Source: Candidatus Aerophobota bacterium (GTDB taxonomy: Bacteria; Aerophobota; Aerophobia; Aerophobales; B3-G15). From it: 6,730 nt of DNA. The position numbers and the translations under genes were made by a program. The DNA is taken from contig JACUUP010000083.1 in NCBI GenBank assembly GCA_014859225.1, forward strand, positions 1-6,730, written 5' to 3'. Shown in pieces: positions 1 through 6,720 of the stretch. Position 1 is the stretch's first letter. Every line of letters begins with the position of its first letter. The notes below the pieces were generated by a model. It searched no databases. It was not told where the DNA came from and was given only the letters and a program-made list of their open reading frames with translations.

Positions 1-359
1 TTAGCTGCAACTATTCCATTTGCTCCTAAGATGCCTATATTGGTATCAGCAATATGCATGGAGCCACCTTTCCCTTTGCAGTAACCTGTTTTCTTCCCAT
101 AAAGCTCTGCCATCATGAGTTTAACATCTCCACCCTTGGCAATTAAATGACCGTGACCTCTGTGTGTGCTTCCGATGTAATCATCCTTCCTGAGGCAGGA
201 TGCAACTCCCACGGCAACGGCTTCTTCTCCAATATAAAGATGTTTTAACCCGGGCAAAATACCCTGGAGGTGAAGCTCCTCCACTTTTAATTCAAATTTT
301 CTTATCCGCACCATCTTCTCATACATCTGGAAAAGCTTTTCTTTTTTTAGCTGCAACAT
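1..359 (-). CDS. Thiamine-diphosphate dehydrogenase E1 alpha subunit (acetoin/pyruvate dehydrogenase type), N-terminal part
   Basis: Partial gene: the first 119 codons are present and the reading frame stays open to the left edge. The start ATG at 359-357 follows an AAGGAG ribosome binding site by 6 nt. The protein opens MLQLKKEKLFQMYEKM and carries E1 alpha hallmarks: H40-L-Y-x-G-E-E-A-V (40-48), T-H-R-G-H-G-H (65-71) followed by A-K-G, and G-K-G-G-S-M-H (96-102) before a GANGIV stretch. These belong to the alpha chain of 2-oxoacid or acetoin dehydrogenase E1, which decarboxylates or cleaves its substrate on thiamine diphosphate and passes an acyl group to lipoyl-E2. The GDG diphosphate-binding motif lies beyond the window. 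The THRGHGH...AKG wording and the short N-terminus resemble AcoA-type acetoin dehydrogenase more than classical PdhA, but 119 residues cannot decide the substrate. Only 10 bp separate it from the AOR gene, so cotranscription is likely. E1 beta and E2 genes would be expected further left. Confidence 0.88.
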   Translation of the reverse strand, partial: MLQLKKEKLFQMYEKMVRIRKFELKVEELHLQGILPGLKHLYIGEEAVAVGVASCLRKDDYIGSTHRGHGHLIAKGGDVKLMMAELYGKKTGYCKGKGGSMHIADTNIGILGANGIVAA

Positions 360-365
360 TACTCT

Positions 366-371
366 CTCCTT
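366..371 (-). promoter_or_regulatory. Shine-Dalgarno site of the E1 alpha gene, overlapping the AOR stop
   Basis: AAGGAG lies 6 nt before the ATG at 359. It shares bases with the AOR stop codon (TAA at 372-370, read as TAAGGAG), so a ribosome finishing AOR covers the next initiation site. This fits translational coupling and fixes the E1 alpha start. Confidence 0.75.
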
Positions 372-2142
372 ATTGTAAAAAATCAGGAAGCTTTTTTGGA
401 TTACCTTTCTTATCCCAACCTCTCATATCGTAGTATTCATCGAGCATATACATAAACTCATCTTTATTTACCAGTTTTCCATCATCTCTTCTTCCCTCTT
501 TAAAAAAGCGTACAGGAAGCATGTCATCTTCTTTTGTCAGCCCTTCCCGCATGCTTATCATTCGCCGCAGCGTAGAAATATCATTTGCCATCTCCTCCAA
601 TTTTTCCCGCTTATAGCTGATACCGGTGATGGCTTCAATTATAGTGATTAAGTCATTCCATTGGATAAGGTCCCTGAAGAATCTGCATAAAATAAGAGTA
701 TCAAAAATGGTCATTCTGTTTTCCCATTCAATTAATAGTTTTGCCTTACCTTCAACCTGCTCAGGAGGGATAATTCCAGCAAGCTCTGGTTTGTAAAATG
801 TAGCTGTTAAGTGACAGGCTCCCCGGGGAGAAGTTGCATACTGAAGAGCCATACCTTTCAGTACTCGAGGGTCAAATCCTGCAGGCTCAAGACCCTTAAC
901 ATGAACGGCTACATCTTCAGCATCAAAGTGCTTTGCTGTATACTTTATACCTCGGGCAAGTATATCTCCTATCCCTTCTCTATTTTTAATTTTTTGAAGA
1001 AGTTCTATGGCAACATCAGAGTTGCCGTATTCAAATTTTTCTTTAATCCTCCCTCTCTTTGAAAGCTCCATACAAAAGGCAATCAGGTTTCCCGCACTTA
1101 TTGTATCCATCCCCGCTCTGTCACATATATCATTGAGGTAAGCAATCTCCTCCAGCTCATTTATCCGACAAAGACCCCCAAAGGCATAAATTGTTTCATG
1201 TTCGGGACCTTCTATCTTTAAACCTTTATGCCTTCCTTTTAAAACTTCGGAAACTTTCCCACAGGCAATAAAACATCTCTCGCAGGCATGGGGCATAACT
1301 TTTAAATCATTAAGGAGAGAATCTGCACTTATCTTCTCCCAGTCTTCAAACACTCCTTTTGACCAGTATTCTGAAGGCCAGGCTTTTGCATTGTTGAGTA
1401 TAGCCACCATCTGGACAGTCCCATACTTTCTATAGGCGGCAACCCCCGCATCATTTTTCCCTTTTCTTACCAGAGATTTAACATAGCTCCTTAAAAGGTT
1501 ATCATCAGCTAAATTTGCACTTGCATTCCCATGAAAAACGAGCGCTTTCAACTTTTTGGAACCCATAACCGCCCCTAATCCACATCTTCCGGCACTTCTC
1601 CAGTAATTGTTCTCTATGCAAGCAAAGGTAACCATCTTCTCCCCCGCAGGACCTATTACCATCGCCTGTGCCCCGGGGACGCCAACTTCTTTTAAGATGG
1701 TATCCTCTGTTTCATAGGTATCCTTACCCCAGAGATGCTCAGCTGAATGAAATTTAACACCATCGTTTGAAATTTCAAGATAAACAGGAGAGGAGGAGGC
1801 ACCTGTTACTAAAATAGCATCATAACCTGCTGCTTTCATCTTATAGGCTACCCAGCCTCCCGCATAGGAGTCGGCAAAAAAGTTTGTCAGGGGAGACTTG
1901 GAAAAAACTGCATATCTACTTGCACCCATCATTTTTGTTCCAGTAGCAGGCCCTAAAGCAAAAACAAGCACATTGTCAGGAGAAAGAGGGTCTTTCCCTT
2001 TTTCCAGATTTTCCCATAAAAGATATGCTCCAAGACCTCTGCCGCCCAGGGTAGCTCGTAAAATATCATCAGAAATTTCCTCTTCCTGCCACTTTTTTTC
2101 ACTTAAGTCAACCCTCAACAGTTTGTTATAAAATCCTCTCAT
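370..2142 (-). CDS. aor: Tungsten-containing aldehyde ferredoxin oxidoreductase (AOR family)
   Basis: A complete 590-aa enzyme, close to the usual AOR length of about 600. The family oxidises aldehydes to carboxylic acids in the cytoplasm at a tungsten bis-pterin centre and passes electrons through one [4Fe-4S] cluster to ferredoxin. The N-terminus (MRGFYNKLLRVDLS, then GGRGLGAYLL) is the typical AOR opening. RSAGRCGLGAVMGSKKLKA at about 182-200 is a family signature. Cluster ligands are C287-x2-C290-x3-C294 plus distant C486 within DTLILC. A pterin-contact motif D-x-x-G-x-D is at 341-346. GPE(H)E at 312-316 and H444 in SPRGACHL probably match the active-site Glu and His of Pyrococcus AOR. 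I chose ATG 2142 rather than the in-frame TTG at 2145 because AGGAGG is 6 nt from the ATG but only 3 nt from the TTG. The gene follows the SDR by about 20 bp and precedes E1 alpha by 10 bp. No iron-sulfur partner subunit is adjacent. The aldehyde substrate cannot be read from the sequence. Confidence 0.95.
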   Translation of the reverse strand: MRGFYNKLLRVDLSEKKWQEEEISDDILRATLGGRGLGAYLLWENLEKGKDPLSPDNVLVFALGPATGTKMMGASRYAVFSKSPLTNFFADSYAGGWVAYKMKAAGYDAILVTGASSSPVYLEISNDGVKFHSAEHLWGKDTYETEDTILKEVGVPGAQAMVIGPAGEKMVTFACIENNYWRSAGRCGLGAVMGSKKLKALVFHGNASANLADDNLLRSYVKSLVRKGKNDAGVAAYRKYGTVQMVAILNNAKAWPSEYWSKGVFEDWEKISADSLLNDLKVMPHACERCFIACGKVSEVLKGRHKGLKIEGPEHETIYAFGGLCRINELEEIAYLNDICDRAGMDTISAGNLIAFCMELSKRGRIKEKFEYGNSDVAIELLQKIKNREGIGDILARGIKYTAKHFDAEDVAVHVKGLEPAGFDPRVLKGMALQYATSPRGACHLTATFYKPELAGIIPPEQVEGKAKLLIEWENRMTIFDTLILCRFFRDLIQWNDLITIIEAITGISYKREKLEEMANDISTLRRMISMREGLTKEDDMLPVRFFKEGRRDDGKLVNKDEFMYMLDEYYDMRGWDKKGNPKKLPDFLQ

Positions 2143-2148
2143 CAAATT

Positions 2149-2154
2149 CCTCCT
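2149..2154 (-). promoter_or_regulatory. Shine-Dalgarno site of the AOR gene
   Basis: A full AGGAGG lies 6 nt upstream of ATG 2142, after an A/T-only stretch that follows the SDR stop. Its spacing favours the ATG over the TTG immediately before it. It is the strongest ribosome binding site in the window, suggesting high AOR expression. Confidence 0.75.
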
Positions 2155-2162
2155 AAAAAAAA

Positions 2163-2912
2163 TTAATCCATAAGAATTCCCCCATTAACATCCGTGACCT
2201 CACCCGTGATAAATTTTGCTCTATCAGAGGCAAGAAAAAGCACCGCTTCAGCTATGTCCTGAGGTTCTCCAAATCTACCTAGTGGTATTTGTTTTGCAAG
2301 TTTCTCCCTATCCTCCTTAGACCAGATATCAGTCATCCTCGTTTTAATCTGTCCAGGGCAAACAGCATTCACATTCACTCCGTAAGGGGCGAGTTTTTTT
2401 GCAAAAGATTTAGTAAGGGAGATAACCCCAGCCTTGGAGGCAGAATAATTAGCGCCTACTATAATTCCACCTATTTTTCCCGCAAGTGAGGCAATGTTTA
2501 CTATCTTCCCGTATTCTTGAGAAATCATAACCTGCATGACTGCCTGAGAACAAAGAAAGCAGCCTTTAAGATTTATCGCCAGAACCCTGTCCCATTCCTC
2601 TTCGCTAATGTCCTCAAGCGGGGTAAGGCAAGTAATTCCAGCATTGTTAACAAGAATGTCTACTCTTTTGAATTCCTCTACTATTTCCTTAAATACTTTC
2701 CTAACTTCATCTCCACGGGAAACATCTAACTTAACTGGAAGAGCAGAAAATCCCTTATCTTTAATTTCCGAGGCTGTTTTTGTAGCAGCCTCATAGTCTA
2801 TATCGCACACTAAAACATCTGCACCTTCTCCTGCAAAGGTTAAACAGATAGCCTTGCCTATCCCCCGTGCTCCTCCTGTCACAACAGCAACTTTTGCCTC
2901 CAGCTCTTTCAT
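2163..2912 (-). CDS. NAD-type short-chain dehydrogenase/reductase (classical SDR)
   Basis: A complete 249-aa classical SDR, of normal family length. Visible elements are the Rossmann glycine motif T12-G-G-A-R-G-I-G19, D37 at the end of strand beta-2 (an acidic residue there usually selects NAD(H) over NADP(H)), NNAG at 89-92, the catalytic tetrad N114, S142, Y156 and K160, PG at 186-187, and the FITGEVTDVNGG C-terminal region. Such enzymes interconvert alcohols and carbonyls in the cytoplasm. FabG (3-oxoacyl-ACP reductase), 2,3-butanediol dehydrogenase and sugar-alcohol dehydrogenases look alike at this level, so no gene symbol is given. D37 argues for an oxidative NAD role over NADPH-dependent FabG. 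It is the first gene behind the consensus promoter at 2997-3024 and lies about 20 bp before AOR, so it probably belongs to the same catabolic unit. The ATG at 2912 is preceded by GAGG at 2922-2925 (9 nt spacing). Confidence 0.9.
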   Translation of the reverse strand: MKELEAKVAVVTGGARGIGKAICLTFAGEGADVLVCDIDYEAATKTASEIKDKGFSALPVKLDVSRGDEVRKVFKEIVEEFKRVDILVNNAGITCLTPLEDISEEEWDRVLAINLKGCFLCSQAVMQVMISQEYGKIVNIASLAGKIGGIIVGANYSASKAGVISLTKSFAKKLAPYGVNVNAVCPGQIKTRMTDIWSKEDREKLAKQIPLGRFGEPQDIAEAVLFLASDRAKFITGEVTDVNGGILMD

Positions 2913-2986: not shown

Positions 2987-3009
2987 GATGGTTACTATTA
3001 TAAACCATC
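2987..3009 (-). promoter_or_regulatory. Perfect inverted repeat overlapping the -10 box (candidate operator)
   Basis: GATGGTT and AACCATC form a perfect 7-bp inverted repeat with a 9-bp spacer, 23 bp in all. The -10 hexamer TATAAT lies inside the spacer and the predicted transcription start is at or next to the downstream arm. A dimeric repressor bound here would block RNA polymerase. The arms do not match the ModE-type sites I know, so the regulator is unknown. A transcribed hairpin is less likely because one arm lies upstream of the expected start. Confidence 0.55.
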
Positions 3010-3024
3010 GGGGCATAATGTCAA
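2997..3024 (-). promoter_or_regulatory. Consensus sigma-70/sigma-A promoter for the SDR-AOR-E1 unit
   Basis: TTGACA (3024-3019) and TATAAT (3002-2997) are both exact consensus hexamers, separated by 16 bp. The -35 begins only 9 bp after the moaA stop codon. Transcription should start near 2989-2991, giving a leader of about 78 nt before the SDR ATG. Two perfect boxes in the only long gap of the gene train are unlikely to be chance. Confidence 0.8.
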
Positions 3025-3032
3025 AAAACTTA

Positions 3033-3986
3033 TTATCCTCCTATCTGGAACATAAATTTATGAGGACTGGTAAAGGCGGGACAGGAAACATTTTTTTGAA
3101 TTTTGTATCGTAAAGCCACATCTATCAGCTCTTGTATCTTGAGCTGGCTATGTTCATCACGCAATGCGTTTTTTACATCCAGCTCATAACCGGATGCAAG
3201 GCAGGGTCTTAGTTTTCCATCTGCGCTAAGACGCAAACGAGAACATCTGTGGCAAAAAGAATTTGAAATGGGGCTTATGAAACCTACGACGAGCGAAGTG
3301 CTATGTAGAGAAAAATACTCGGCAGGACCGTTTCCTAAGAAATTTGTGGGCTCTAATGCCCCCCATTTCTTCTCTATTATGCTCCGCACAACCTTGTTGG
3401 ATATCTGCCAGGACTTATCTCCTACTCCCTCAATAGGCATATATTCTATGAATCTGAGTACCAGCGAGTTTTTCAGGGCAAAATGCACAAAGTCATTTAT
3501 TTCGGTATCATTGATACCTTGAAGGGCTACCACGTTAATCTTTACAGGTTCAATGCCTGTCTCTTTTGCAGCTTCTATACCCTTTAAAACTTTCAAAAGA
3601 CCATCCGAGCCGGTGATGTGGATAAATTTATTCCTGTTGAGCGTATCCAGGCTCACGTTGATGCGTGAGATGCCTGCTTCTTTTAAACCCTTCGCATACT
3701 CGCTCAAGCATATTCCATTCGTAGTCAAGGTAATATCATCTATGTTTTGTACCCTGGTAATCATGTCAATTAATGTAATTATGTTCCTGCGCAAAAGCGG
3801 CTCTCCTCCGGTGAGTCTTACTTTCCTCACGCCAACTTCTGCCGCAACCTTTATGAACTGCACCATCTCCTCAAATCTCAAAATTTTTTCACGTTCCATA
3901 ATTCTAACCCACGTTTTAGGACGACAATAAATGCAGTTCAAATTGCACCTATCGGTCAAAGATAGCCTTAGATAATTCAGTTCCAT
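3033..3986 (-). CDS. moaA: GTP 3',8-cyclase MoaA (radical SAM, molybdopterin/tungstopterin synthesis)
   Basis: A complete 317-aa radical SAM enzyme. MoaA converts GTP to 3',8-cyclo-7,8-dihydro-GTP, the first committed step of the pterin cofactor that carries molybdenum or tungsten. The SAM-binding cluster motif is C14-x3-C18-x2-C21 and GGEP is at 60-63. The second, GTP-binding cluster is C245-x2-C248-x13-C262. The arginines used for GTP chemistry in studied MoaA proteins appear as R13 in TDRC and R250/R252 in SRLR. The protein ends in the catalytically important GG pair. The N-terminus is about 10 residues shorter than usual and lacks the D-x-x-x-R segment before YLRLS. An in-frame TAG directly before the ATG rules out a longer version. 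GGAAGG is 5 nt upstream of the start. It lies 20 bp after tupC, consistent with cotranscription and with a role in AOR cofactor supply. No other moa gene is in the window. Confidence 0.95.
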   Translation of the reverse strand: MELNYLRLSLTDRCNLNCIYCRPKTWVRIMEREKILRFEEMVQFIKVAAEVGVRKVRLTGGEPLLRRNIITLIDMITRVQNIDDITLTTNGICLSEYAKGLKEAGISRINVSLDTLNRNKFIHITGSDGLLKVLKGIEAAKETGIEPVKINVVALQGINDTEINDFVHFALKNSLVLRFIEYMPIEGVGDKSWQISNKVVRSIIEKKWGALEPTNFLGNGPAEYFSLHSTSLVVGFISPISNSFCHRCSRLRLSADGKLRPCLASGYELDVKNALRDEHSQLKIQELIDVALRYKIQKNVSCPAFTSPHKFMFQIGG

Positions 3987-4006: not shown

Positions 4007-5077
4007 TCAGCCAATAATATGAAGCGCTGTAGCTTTAAACGATGCATAAACTTTTTTCCCAATGCCAAGCTGCATATCCTCGGCTGATTTTTTCGTAACT
4101 ACGGCGATAAGTGGAAAAGGACACGCAAGCTCGACTCTAACAAGTGGCCCGGAGAACGCTACGAGTTTTACTTGGCCGGAAAGAAAATTCCTGGCACTAC
4201 TTGCATGTTTTGCAGTAGAAAGTGTTATATTTTCTGCTCGAATACAAACATGCACTTTTTCACCTACCCGGCAGTTGGATATACCCTCGATTGTGTGCCC
4301 CTGAACATCTATACAAGTCATACCAGCATCGTTGGAGATTACCACACCTTTTAAAATATTTTCCACTCCAACAAATTTAGCCACTTCTTCATTTTCGGGA
4401 GCTCGGAAAACTTCGGTTGATTTCCCTGCCTGAACAAGCTCACCCTTCATTAAAACACCTATTCTATCGGCAAGATGCTGCCCCTGAAGCATGTTATGCG
4501 TCGCCATCACTACGGTAGTTTTTTGCTCACGACTAAGCCGCAGGATAAGACTCTCAATCAAGTCTACGCTCAAGGGATCAAGATTGGCAGTTGGTTCATC
4601 CAGCAGGAGCATCTCAGGTTCAGAGACTATGGCACGTGCCAGAGCAACCCTTTGCGTCTCGCCCCCGGAGAGTTTGCGTGAATGACTTTTTACATAGCTA
4701 TCCATGGATACTAAATGTAAAACCTGTATAACTTTGTTAGCGATATCTCTCTCTTTGTATCCCCGTACCCGGAGCGGATAGGCAACATTTTCGTACACAG
4801 TGGTATTGAATAAAAGTGGCTTTTGGAACACCATCGACATTTTGCGCCGTACCTTTAACTTGAACCTGGGTGAGGCTAAACTGTCTTTCCCTGCAAACTT
4901 TATTGTTCCTGCAGTCGGCTTATCCAGTAAATCAATCAACCTCAAAAGAGTCGTTTTACCCGCACCGGTTGGACCAACCAGAGCAAATATCTCCCCCTGT
5001 CCAATCTTCAAATTAATTCCTTTCAGAATCTCTTGCGAACCGTACCGGTAATATAAATCTACAATCTCCATATCCAT
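4007..5077 (-). CDS. tupC: Tungstate ABC transporter ATP-binding protein
   Basis: A complete 356-aa ATPase that powers tungstate import on the cytoplasmic face of the permease. Nucleotide-binding domain (about 1-235): Walker A G35-P-T-G-A-G-K-T-T43, Q-loop Q85 in VFQKP, signature L136-S-G-G-E140, Walker B MLLLDEP with D160 and E161, D-loop ANLD (164-167) and switch H194. The roughly 120-residue C-terminal part (about 236-356) looks like a TOBE/Mop-type oxyanion-binding region, with KGVVI...GHTIEG...VHVCIRAENITLS and then LSGQVKLVAFSGPLVRVEL...KATALHI. In ModC relatives such domains bind oxyanion and can feed back on transport. Many TupC proteins are shorter and lack this extension, so cytoplasmic inhibition by tungstate or molybdate is plausible. 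Start: ATG 5077, 4 nt after the tupB stop; a second ATG at 5071 is possible. Assignment to tungstate rather than molybdate rests mainly on the TupA partner. Confidence 0.9.
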   Translation of the reverse strand: MDMEIVDLYYRYGSQEILKGINLKIGQGEIFALVGPTGAGKTTLLRLIDLLDKPTAGTIKFAGKDSLASPRFKLKVRRKMSMVFQKPLLFNTTVYENVAYPLRVRGYKERDIANKVIQVLHLVSMDSYVKSHSRKLSGGETQRVALARAIVSEPEMLLLDEPTANLDPLSVDLIESLILRLSREQKTTVVMATHNMLQGQHLADRIGVLMKGELVQAGKSTEVFRAPENEEVAKFVGVENILKGVVISNDAGMTCIDVQGHTIEGISNCRVGEKVHVCIRAENITLSTAKHASSARNFLSGQVKLVAFSGPLVRVELACPFPLIAVVTKKSAEDMQLGIGKKVYASFKATALHIIG

Positions 5078-5081
5078 ATTA

Positions 5082-5771
5082 TCAGAACCTTTGCTGGATT
5101 AGGTTCATCGCCATATTAACCGCTAAAGATACACAGATGAGAACTATTCCAAGCGCCAGCGCAAACTCCAATTCACCTTTCTGAGTTTCCAGGGAAATTG
5201 CGGTCGTTAAGACGCGCGTAAATCCTTTAATGTTTCCCCCGAGCATAATCGCAGCCCCCACCTCTGATACTGCTCTGCCAAAACCCATAATCACTCCCGC
5301 CACCACCGAGAATCTTGCTTCTTTGATAATGGTCCAGATAACCTGCAAACGGGTAGCACCAAGTGATAACGCACTTTCTCTGATAGCAACATCAATACCG
5401 GTCAAAGCAGCAAAGGTGAGACCGAGCAGGATGGGCGTAATGAGTATGGTCTGCCCGATGATCATCGCCGTCGGTGTAAACATAAGACCCAGGCTACCCA
5501 GTGGTCCTGCCCGCGATATGAGCACGAAAACAAAAAGACCCACACATACCGTGGGCAGACTGTAAAAGGTTTGAATGAGATTTATCAAGAAGCGTTTGCC
5601 ACGAAATTGATGAAATTGAATTAATCCGGATAAGGGAATACAGATTGCTGAAGCGAATGTCGTTGAAGTTCCAGCAATCCACAAAGATCGCAGCGTAATC
5701 TCCACAACTTCCGGATCTCTCGTTGCTATAAGTTCAACTGCTTTGAGTAAGGCTCGCCCAAGTTCATTCAT
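5082..5771 (-). CDS. tupB: Tungstate ABC transporter permease
   Basis: A 229-aa integral membrane protein forming the tungstate channel. About five hydrophobic segments can be seen, near residues 22-50, 62-86, 97-124, 152-178 and 203-225. Between the third and fourth lies the cytoplasmic EAA loop, R-E-S-A-L-S-L-G-A-T (131-140) through the G-F-G-R-A-V-S-E-V-G-A stretch (163-173), which docks on the ATPase. Length and layout match TupB. The frame is open upstream to an ATG at 5897, but that version would overlap the tupA coding end by 116 bp and add 42 hydrophilic residues not expected in this family. I therefore use ATG 5771, 10 nt after the tupA stop. No good Shine-Dalgarno sequence precedes it (GCGAAAATACA), so translation probably depends on coupling to tupA. 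ModB and other anion permeases look alike; the tungstate assignment comes from the adjacent TupA. Confidence 0.88.
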   Translation of the reverse strand: MNELGRALLKAVELIATRDPEVVEITLRSLWIAGTSTTFASAICIPLSGLIQFHQFRGKRFLINLIQTFYSLPTVCVGLFVFVLISRAGPLGSLGLMFTPTAMIIGQTILITPILLGLTFAALTGIDVAIRESALSLGATRLQVIWTIIKEARFSVVAGVIMGFGRAVSEVGAAIMLGGNIKGFTRVLTTAISLETQKGELEFALALGIVLICVSLAVNMAMNLIQQRF

Positions 5772-5781
5772 TGTATTTTCG

Positions 5782-6720
5782 CTATTTAACGCGCGTTGCA
5801 CACTCTTCCCAGGCAGGACAACCGATATCCTTGCATTGTCCACCTCCTCCCGGATAGAAAAGAGGTACTCCGTATTCTTCCACTCCGTAGTTTGCAATCA
5901 ACTCCTGCACCTCGTCTGATATGAGGAAATTGATAAGGTTGTTCGCCATGCGAATATCAACCCGGGCATGTTTCTCAGGATCTATGGCAAGTATCGCATA
6001 CACGTTGAGTAGAACCTCTCCCTCTGCAACCAGAGAAACAAGCTCTAAATCACCCACAAAAGCCAGAAATGTCCCGATATCCGTGAGGGTATACGCCTCC
6101 ATCTCGGATGCCATGAGTAGCGTAGGCCCCATTCCCCTGCCTGCCTCTACATACCAGGAGCCAGATTTTTGAACGTCACTGTAGGCATAACCTGCCTTTG
6201 ACCAGACTGTCTTTTCCCGGGCATGCGTTCCTGAACCGTCCCCCCTGGAGACAAATCTTATCTTATCCGGATTTGTCTGTCCTTCCATCATTAGTTTCTG
6301 AAACGCCTCTTCGGGTAACATATTTCGTATCCCGGCAGGGTCAATTTCTGGACCTACAAGTATAAAATAATTATAGGCAAAGCACCTGCGGTTTACCCCG
6401 TATCCTTGTTCTACAAAAGCATCTTCGCGCTGCCGGTCGTGAATGGCAATAACATCAACATCGCCTCGTTTTCCATATTCAAGTGCTATTCCCGTGCCTG
6501 CATATATAATATCCAGCTTAACATTAAACTTTTCTTCAAATGCAGGCTCAAGATATTCCCACAGACCCGTATCGTACAGACTCGTGGTCGTTGCAACCTT
6601 TAATCTTTGTCTTGCAAAAGCGCAGCCACCCTGTCCACCTACTCTACCCAAACAGTCCGTCAGCAGTAGTGCACTAAGTAGCAACATCCCCACACAAACC
6701 ATTTTCACGCACTTCCTCAC
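5782..6720 (-). CDS. tupA: Tungstate-binding protein of the TupABC transporter (extracytoplasmic)
   Basis: A 312-aa substrate-binding protein that captures tungstate outside the membrane. Diagnostic TupA elements are A43-T-T-T-S-L-Y-D-T-G-L (43-53), with TTTS as the oxyanion-binding loop, S158-R-G-D-G-S-G-T165, and AYTLTDIGTFLA (209-220). The last usually reads TDRGT; here Ile215 replaces the Arg. A basic start plus a hydrophobic core (V8-L20) forms a signal peptide. C23 after LTD is lipobox-like, but Asp at -1 is unusual, so lipoprotein or secreted forms are both possible. The C-terminal tail after LFYPGGGG contains three cysteines (C296, C301, C307), which is unusual for this family. The frame begins with GTG at 6720, only 2 nt from a GGAGG, so GTG 6708 or ATG 6702 may be the true start. 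The window edge cuts off the promoter. It is the first gene of tupABC-moaA, 10 bp before tupB. Confidence 0.92.
   Translation of the reverse strand: MRKCVKMVCVGMLLLSALLLTDCLGRVGGQGGCAFARQRLKVATTTSLYDTGLWEYLEPAFEEKFNVKLDIIYAGTGIALEYGKRGDVDVIAIHDRQREDAFVEQGYGVNRRCFAYNYFILVGPEIDPAGIRNMLPEEAFQKLMMEGQTNPDKIRFVSRGDGSGTHAREKTVWSKAGYAYSDVQKSGSWYVEAGRGMGPTLLMASEMEAYTLTDIGTFLAFVGDLELVSLVAEGEVLLNVYAILAIDPEKHARVDIRMANNLINFLISDEVQELIANYGVEEYGVPLFYPGGGGQCKDIGCPAWEECATRVK

Follow-up and report, generated by a model that had tools for sequence, protein, structure and literature searches.

An AOR gene in a dehydrogenase-E1 operon

We analyzed a stretch of 6,730 nucleotides (the window) that constitutes the whole of contig JACUUP010000083.1 (C200) in a 1.8-Mb, 273-contig Candidatus Aerophobetes metagenome-assembled genome (MAG). 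Its subject is a gene for a tungsten aldehyde:ferredoxin oxidoreductase (AOR) that stands between genes for a short-chain dehydrogenase (SDR) and for the alpha subunit of an acetoin-type E1 enzyme. Labels beginning with G, C, and L denote genomes, contigs, and loci, with G000 being the window's own genome. All window genes lie on the minus strand, in the order TupA, TupB, TupC/WtpC-like, MoaA, SDR, AOR, and E1 alpha, and the closest named relative of this MAG that has the operon is Candidatus Aerophobetes isolate AUK192. The features are as follows.

3..359, minus strand: E1 alpha of an acetoin-type 2-oxoacid/ketol dehydrogenase, N-terminal 119 amino acids, cut by the contig end (TIGR03182, 1.8e-37; PF00676, E1_dh, 3.1e-20)
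370..2145, minus strand: AOR family protein (tungsten), 591 amino acids (PF02730, AFOR_N; PF01314, AFOR_C)
2163..2912, minus strand: SDR, NAD type (D37), FabG-like, 249 amino acids (Pfam adh_short, 6.8e-67)
2997..3024, minus strand: perfect sigma-70-type promoter of the SDR-AOR-E1 operon, TTGACA-16-TATAAT (12/12 match)
2987..3009, no strand: perfect 7-bp inverted repeat GATGGTT-N9-AACCATC with the SDR promoter's -10 box at its center, a possible operator on weak evidence
3033..3986, minus strand: MoaA, GTP 3',8-cyclase of pyranopterin cofactor synthesis (TIGR02666, 336 bits, over the cutoff)
4007..5077, minus strand: ATPase of a tungstate-type ATP-binding cassette (ABC) transporter with a TOBE domain, TupC/WtpC-like (WtpC, 295.7 bits, missing the cutoff of 440)
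5082..5771, minus strand: TupB-like permease (the listed open reading frame begins at 5897; the likely ATG is at 5771)
5782..6720, minus strand: TupA-like tungstate-binding protein (NF041772, 1.4e-51, 175 bits, missing the cutoff of 400)

An earlier note on this DNA had described the SDR, AOR, and E1 alpha genes as adjacent and tightly spaced behind one promoter, and this description stands: the SDR-AOR and AOR-E1 alpha gaps are 17 and 10 bp, and the promoter occupies the 120-bp gap between MoaA and the SDR. Only 0.0065 such promoters are expected per dinucleotide-shuffled window, and in G001 a perfect promoter likewise follows MoaA at the corresponding position. The inverted repeat was absent from every other locus compared.

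The AOR gene encodes a full-length protein (AFOR_N, 1.7e-79; AFOR_C, 5.4e-116); its listed start is a TTG at 2145, and the adjoining ATG at 2142 better suits the Shine-Dalgarno sequence. It retains all four cysteines of the [4Fe-4S] cluster as well as the catalytic glutamate and histidine, with C288, C291, C295, C487, E317, and H445 aligning with C288, C291, C295, C494, E313, and H448 of Pyrococcus furiosus AOR. No small Fe-S subunit gene adjoins it, its neighbors being the SDR and E1 alpha genes, and the protein therefore fits Class I as defined previously (PMC13328260). The adjoining TupABC and MoaA genes make tungsten a plausible metal for this enzyme.

The SDR carries TGGARGIG, D37, and the catalytic S/Y/K residues and is 69% identical to the SDR at the matching place in G001. 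Against the BudC model it reached 226 bits and missed the cutoff of 270. Compared by eye with the butanediol dehydrogenase of Corynebacterium glutamicum (table in PMC3543383), it keeps S, A, Y, P, G, and M among the 11 pocket residues and differs in the remaining 5 (I142L, F148 to G or I, I186Q, W192T, and I195W). On the cutoff and the pocket residues we rejected this SDR as a butanediol dehydrogenase.

The missing E1 part and the conserved core

Of the approximately 327 residues of E1 alpha, 119 precede the contig end, and the GDG..NN thiamine motif falls beyond it. With the full E1 alpha of a relative as the query, the terminus of C216, another contig of the same genome, was found to encode the C-terminal 93 residues of E1 alpha, followed by E1 beta and, beyond it, by an epimerase-type extended SDR and a medium-chain dehydrogenase (MDR); the last scored 325 against the threonine dehydrogenase model, below its cutoff of 458. 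Because of synteny with relatives, C216 very probably continues C200, across a gap of about 350 bp within E1 alpha. Two independent MAG assemblies break E1 alpha at almost the same residue (119 in the window, positions 1-5; 116 in L079:1-5).

The order AOR, E1 alpha, E1 beta is common to three Aerophobota genera (G000, G001, and G016), across which AOR identity is 74 to 77% and E1 beta identity 76 to 88%; the window's E1 alpha fragment is 84% identical to its G016 counterpart. In G001, contigs C11 and C84 overlap exactly over 127 bp within E1 alpha and together give the order Wtp transporter, MoaA, 2-hydroxyacid dehydrogenase, SDR, iron alcohol dehydrogenase, AOR, E1 alpha, E1 beta, extended SDR, and MDR. 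In G016, whose contigs share an exact 141-bp overlap inside AOR, the order is GntR, MDR, an isomerase of the fucose/sulfoquinovose kind, aldehyde dehydrogenase, AOR, E1 alpha, E1 beta, and an isocitrate-dehydrogenase-like gene (recognized by eye). The G016 isomerase (L074:1819-3216) is a distant relative of the sulfoquinovose isomerase SftI and of fucose isomerase.

The dehydrogenase 5' of AOR thus varies, from an SDR (G000) to an SDR plus an iron alcohol dehydrogenase (G001) to an aldehyde dehydrogenase (G016). The invariant core is AOR-E1 alpha-E1 beta, with the SDR outside it, and the idea of the SDR as an essential operon member is weakened, since the G016 cluster shows none. At only 36% identity, the G000 and G001 MDRs are not clear orthologs of that of G016. 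Chance adjacency of AOR and E1 was rejected, as one order occurs in three genera and the pairing recurs in a Bacillota lineage.

The transporter preceding MoaA is of the Tup type in the window (4007-6720) and of the Wtp type in G001 (L081:3344-6170), a swap of transporter type at one position within one operon. Directly 5' of the G001 transporter lies a molybdenum/tungsten cofactor riboswitch (RF01055, 82 bits; L081:6239-6367, minus strand). A riboswitch search of the window found none; with only about 10 bp between TupA and its end, the window is too short to show a counterpart.

E1 type, shared partners, and the AOR clade

The window's E1 alpha fragment is too short for phylogeny, and its orthologs from G001 and G016 stood in for it in two trees, of 22 and of 39 sequences. 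There, the operon E1 alpha falls with acetoin-type E1s, apart from pyruvate and branched-chain E1s (97/94; 96/93), and groups with those of L117, G012, and G011 (96/91). The full-length G016 ortholog scored 383.7 against TIGR03182 (cutoff, 393.85) and 270.5 against TIGR03181 (cutoff, 411.35), and E1 as a pyruvate or branched-chain dehydrogenase was rejected on the tree and these cutoffs. The earlier note had called the E1 AcoA-like and had proposed this phylogenetic comparison, with a grouping among branched-chain or pyruvate dehydrogenases as a refutation; that outcome did not occur, and the acetoin-type assignment is borne out, with the qualifications that the protein is truncated and that AcoA of operons with acoX, acoR, and lipA forms a branch of its own (99/98), to which the operon E1 is sister. 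Of the E1 beta, E2, E3, and lipoate genes that the note had sought to the left of the window, E1 beta is on C216, with its catalytic E60 and H129 invariant in the eight E1 betas compared, and the others lie elsewhere in the genome.

The window's genome has one E2 (on C55; lipoyl, E3-binding, and catalytic domains), one E3 (on C121), and one LipA, none of them near an E1. Of the 17 genomes of the order, 13 have both an E1 and an E2; G012 has an E1 without an E2, and its contig ends inside E1 beta. Several genomes combine three or four E1 modules with a single E2, and the G011 ortholog of the operon E1 (75% identical in E1 alpha and 84% in E1 beta) has an E2 beside it. Among Aerophobota genomes with an E2, all but one have only one.

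Aerophobota carry several acetoin-type E1 alpha-beta modules in carbohydrate-like clusters (L248-L263 and L246, from G002, G005-G008, G010, G011, G013, and G015). The genes adjoining these E1s of the phylum encode FGGY kinases, class II aldolases, RuBisCO-like proteins, SorC regulators, and sugar ABC transporters (kinases and transporters identified by eye). Also encoded in the window's genome are two proteins of about 790 amino acids that fuse E1 alpha and E1 beta (L077 and L078, on C220 and C4); each has a SorC-type regulator gene nearby, and one has RpiB.

The AOR belongs to a clade, at roughly 50 to 61% identity, with members from Bacillota, Thermodesulfobacteriota, Chloroflexota, and Aerophobota, among which we found no characterized member; a plasmid search with the AOR returned only matches below 60% identity. 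Clade AORs stand beside class III aminotransferases, often with KorABG, in L092, L094, L095, L106, L108, L126, L223-L230, and other loci, which suggests a role with semialdehydes from transamination; some of the aminotransferase-linked loci carry 2-oxoacid:ferredoxin oxidoreductase genes.

A Syntrophomonadaceae MAG locus (PWRN01000103, L117) has the order GntR, E1 alpha, E1 beta, E2, E3, LipB, and LipA, followed by a clade AOR, and in G110 (L218:8437-9800) a broken, frameshifted remnant of an E2 acyltransferase adjoins a clade AOR. The AORs of L117 and G110 fall in a supported group (99/97) without the Aerophobota AORs, which form their own (100/100). Given these separate branches, AOR probably became linked, or relinked, to E1/E2 genes on at least two occasions, and this recurrence is the best evidence that the link is functional.

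A proposed ketol-cleaving route and known systems

An acetoin-type E1 releases an aldehyde, whereas a 2-oxoacid dehydrogenase releases CO2. Since AOR is a repeated partner of the E1, and since acetoin-type E1s release an aldehyde, we favor ketol cleavage. In the best explanation that we can offer, which we hold with about even confidence, the window is part of a catabolic operon whose alcohol dehydrogenases (the SDR here, the MDR downstream, and the iron enzyme in a relative) would oxidize a hydroxylated compound to an alpha-hydroxyketone. The thiamine-dependent E1 alpha/beta, docked on the single shared E2/E3 of the genome, would cleave this ketol to an acyl-CoA and an aldehyde, and the Class I tungsten AOR would convert the released aldehyde to an acid while reducing ferredoxin, with the adjoining tungstate uptake and MoaA genes providing its cofactor. 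The earlier note had reasoned along the same lines, and its general logic gains support, as an inference, from the conserved AOR residues, the neighboring tungsten uptake genes, and an AOR-E1 linkage that is both conserved and recurrent. Its choice of acetoin and 2,3-butanediol as substrates is not supported, given the SDR pocket and BudC cutoff, the absence of AcoR and AcoX from the operon, the position of the E1 outside AcoA, and the sugar-like clusters of related phylum E1s. Acetoin itself, for which we found no specific evidence, is one candidate ketol, and a sugar-derived ketol is another.

Several observations weigh against the ketol-cleaving operon. About 115 residues of E1 alpha, the thiamine motif included, are not in the assembly, so an intact E1 alpha is presumed. 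The epimerase-type SDR has no role in a simple ketol route, and neither C200 nor C216 carries an E2 or E3 gene; the co-occurrence of E1 and E2 is by itself weak (one-sided P value = 0.063). In about 20 scanned loci, the gene adjoining the clade AOR is that of a class III aminotransferase, not E1. Because so many relatives have this neighbor, the clade is not restricted to aldehydes made by E1 and seems to serve different aldehyde sources.

Three other explanations were weighed. If E1 alpha/beta were a 2-oxoacid dehydrogenase, releasing CO2 and no aldehyde, AOR could belong to an independent alcohol-aldehyde-acid branch driven by the operon's alcohol dehydrogenases; the NCBIfam name of the E1 is pyruvate dehydrogenase, the AOR ortholog adjoins 2-oxoacid:ferredoxin oxidoreductases in G003 and G012, and an iron alcohol dehydrogenase or an aldehyde dehydrogenase precedes AOR in the relatives. 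We nevertheless consider this explanation unlikely, given the placement of the E1 among acetoin-type enzymes, the missed pyruvate dehydrogenase cutoff, and the probably separate origins of the AOR-E1 link in two lineages, which are expected if E1 makes an aldehyde. The literal acetoin/2,3-butanediol route, in which the SDR would yield acetoin, the E1 acetyl-CoA and acetaldehyde, and AOR acetate, seems quite unlikely: the SDR is not recognizable as BudC, the MDR is threonine-dehydrogenase-like, AcoR and AcoX are absent from the operon, the E1 is outside the AcoA branch, and the G016 cluster holds an isomerase and an aldehyde dehydrogenase. That route draws its support from the acetoin-type E1, from the resemblance of L117, with LipA/LipB beside E1-E3, to the Pelobacter aco cluster, and from the physiology of Pelobacter carbinolicus, in which acetoin-grown cells oxidize acetaldehyde with viologen (PMC4275255) and one AOR gene (aorA3) rises 2.9-fold on acetoin (PMC3543383).

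Most doubtful is a route in which E1 alpha/beta would cleave a ketose or sugar-derived ketol in a transketolase-like first step, with transfer of a glycolyl or acetyl group to E2, while AOR would oxidize the shortened aldose. The sugar genes beside related E1s of the phylum and the G016 isomerase argue for such chemistry, but neither the window operon nor C216 has a sugar kinase or sugar transporter, and the operon E1 forms a branch apart from those of the sugar-cluster E1s.

Extending the ketol-cleaving operon to the whole phylum, we tentatively propose a plug-in design in which one E2/E3 core per Aerophobota genome may serve several acetoin-type E1 alpha-beta modules placed in ketol-yielding alcohol or sugar clusters, the window's AOR being a built-in aldehyde outlet, so that one ketol would yield acyl-CoA plus reduced ferredoxin. 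If true, such a design would amount to a previously undescribed catabolic route that cleaves ketols and is linked to ferredoxin, and it would suggest why an uncultured phylum has many E1s but one E2. A tungstoenzyme would then belong to a cleavage pathway that uses thiamine and lipoate, saving aldehyde electrons at the potential of ferredoxin rather than as NADH, a saving that matters for fermenters near the energy limit, and an AOR clade without a known role would gain a physiological one.

The biochemical idea itself is known. In the literature searched, we found acetoin dehydrogenase, AOR, and tungsten together solely as Pelobacter physiology and nothing joining Aerophobetes with AOR or acetoin. 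To speak of a new pathway is too strong, since acetoin dehydrogenase and AOR are documented in P. carbinolicus (PMC4275255, PMC3543383); the remark in the earlier note that it knew of no such described operon agrees with our search, which found no description of the joint operon, its conservation, or its shared-E2 setting. Pelobacter (Syntrophotalea) carbinolicus likewise has acetoin-type E1 alpha/beta with E2/E3 and lipoate genes (PMC3543383, PMC4275255), SDR- and MDR-type butanediol dehydrogenases, tungsten AORs expressed on acetoin, and low-potential electrons from acetaldehyde. Its described aco cluster is acoABCSL, with the four AOR genes at locus tags elsewhere (PMC3543383), whereas the window's AOR lies within the E1 operon, E2/E3 lie outside it, and the SDR and MDR are not recognizable butanediol dehydrogenases.

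Class I tungsten oxidoreductases such as P. furiosus AOR (PMC13328260) share with the window's AOR the single large subunit, the [4Fe-4S] cysteines, the catalytic Glu/His, the lack of a small subunit gene, and a nearby tungstate transporter; the members with solved structures are only distant relatives (best PDB match, 385.7 bits), and the partner gene here is E1. A related enzyme has been expressed in the anaerobe Eubacterium limosum (PMC13328260). Canonical acoXABC/acoR systems (Enterococcus gilvus, Mycetohabitans plasmids) have adjacent E1 alpha and E1 beta genes of the same E1 superclade, but the window operon lacks AcoR, AcoX, E2, and E3, has its E1 on a sister branch, and includes AOR. 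The Syntrophomonadaceae locus L117 unites a related E1 alpha/beta with a same-clade AOR in one operon, as the window does, and differs in being complete with E2, E3, LipB, and LipA, in showing no alcohol dehydrogenase, and in being followed by an old-yellow-enzyme-like gene.

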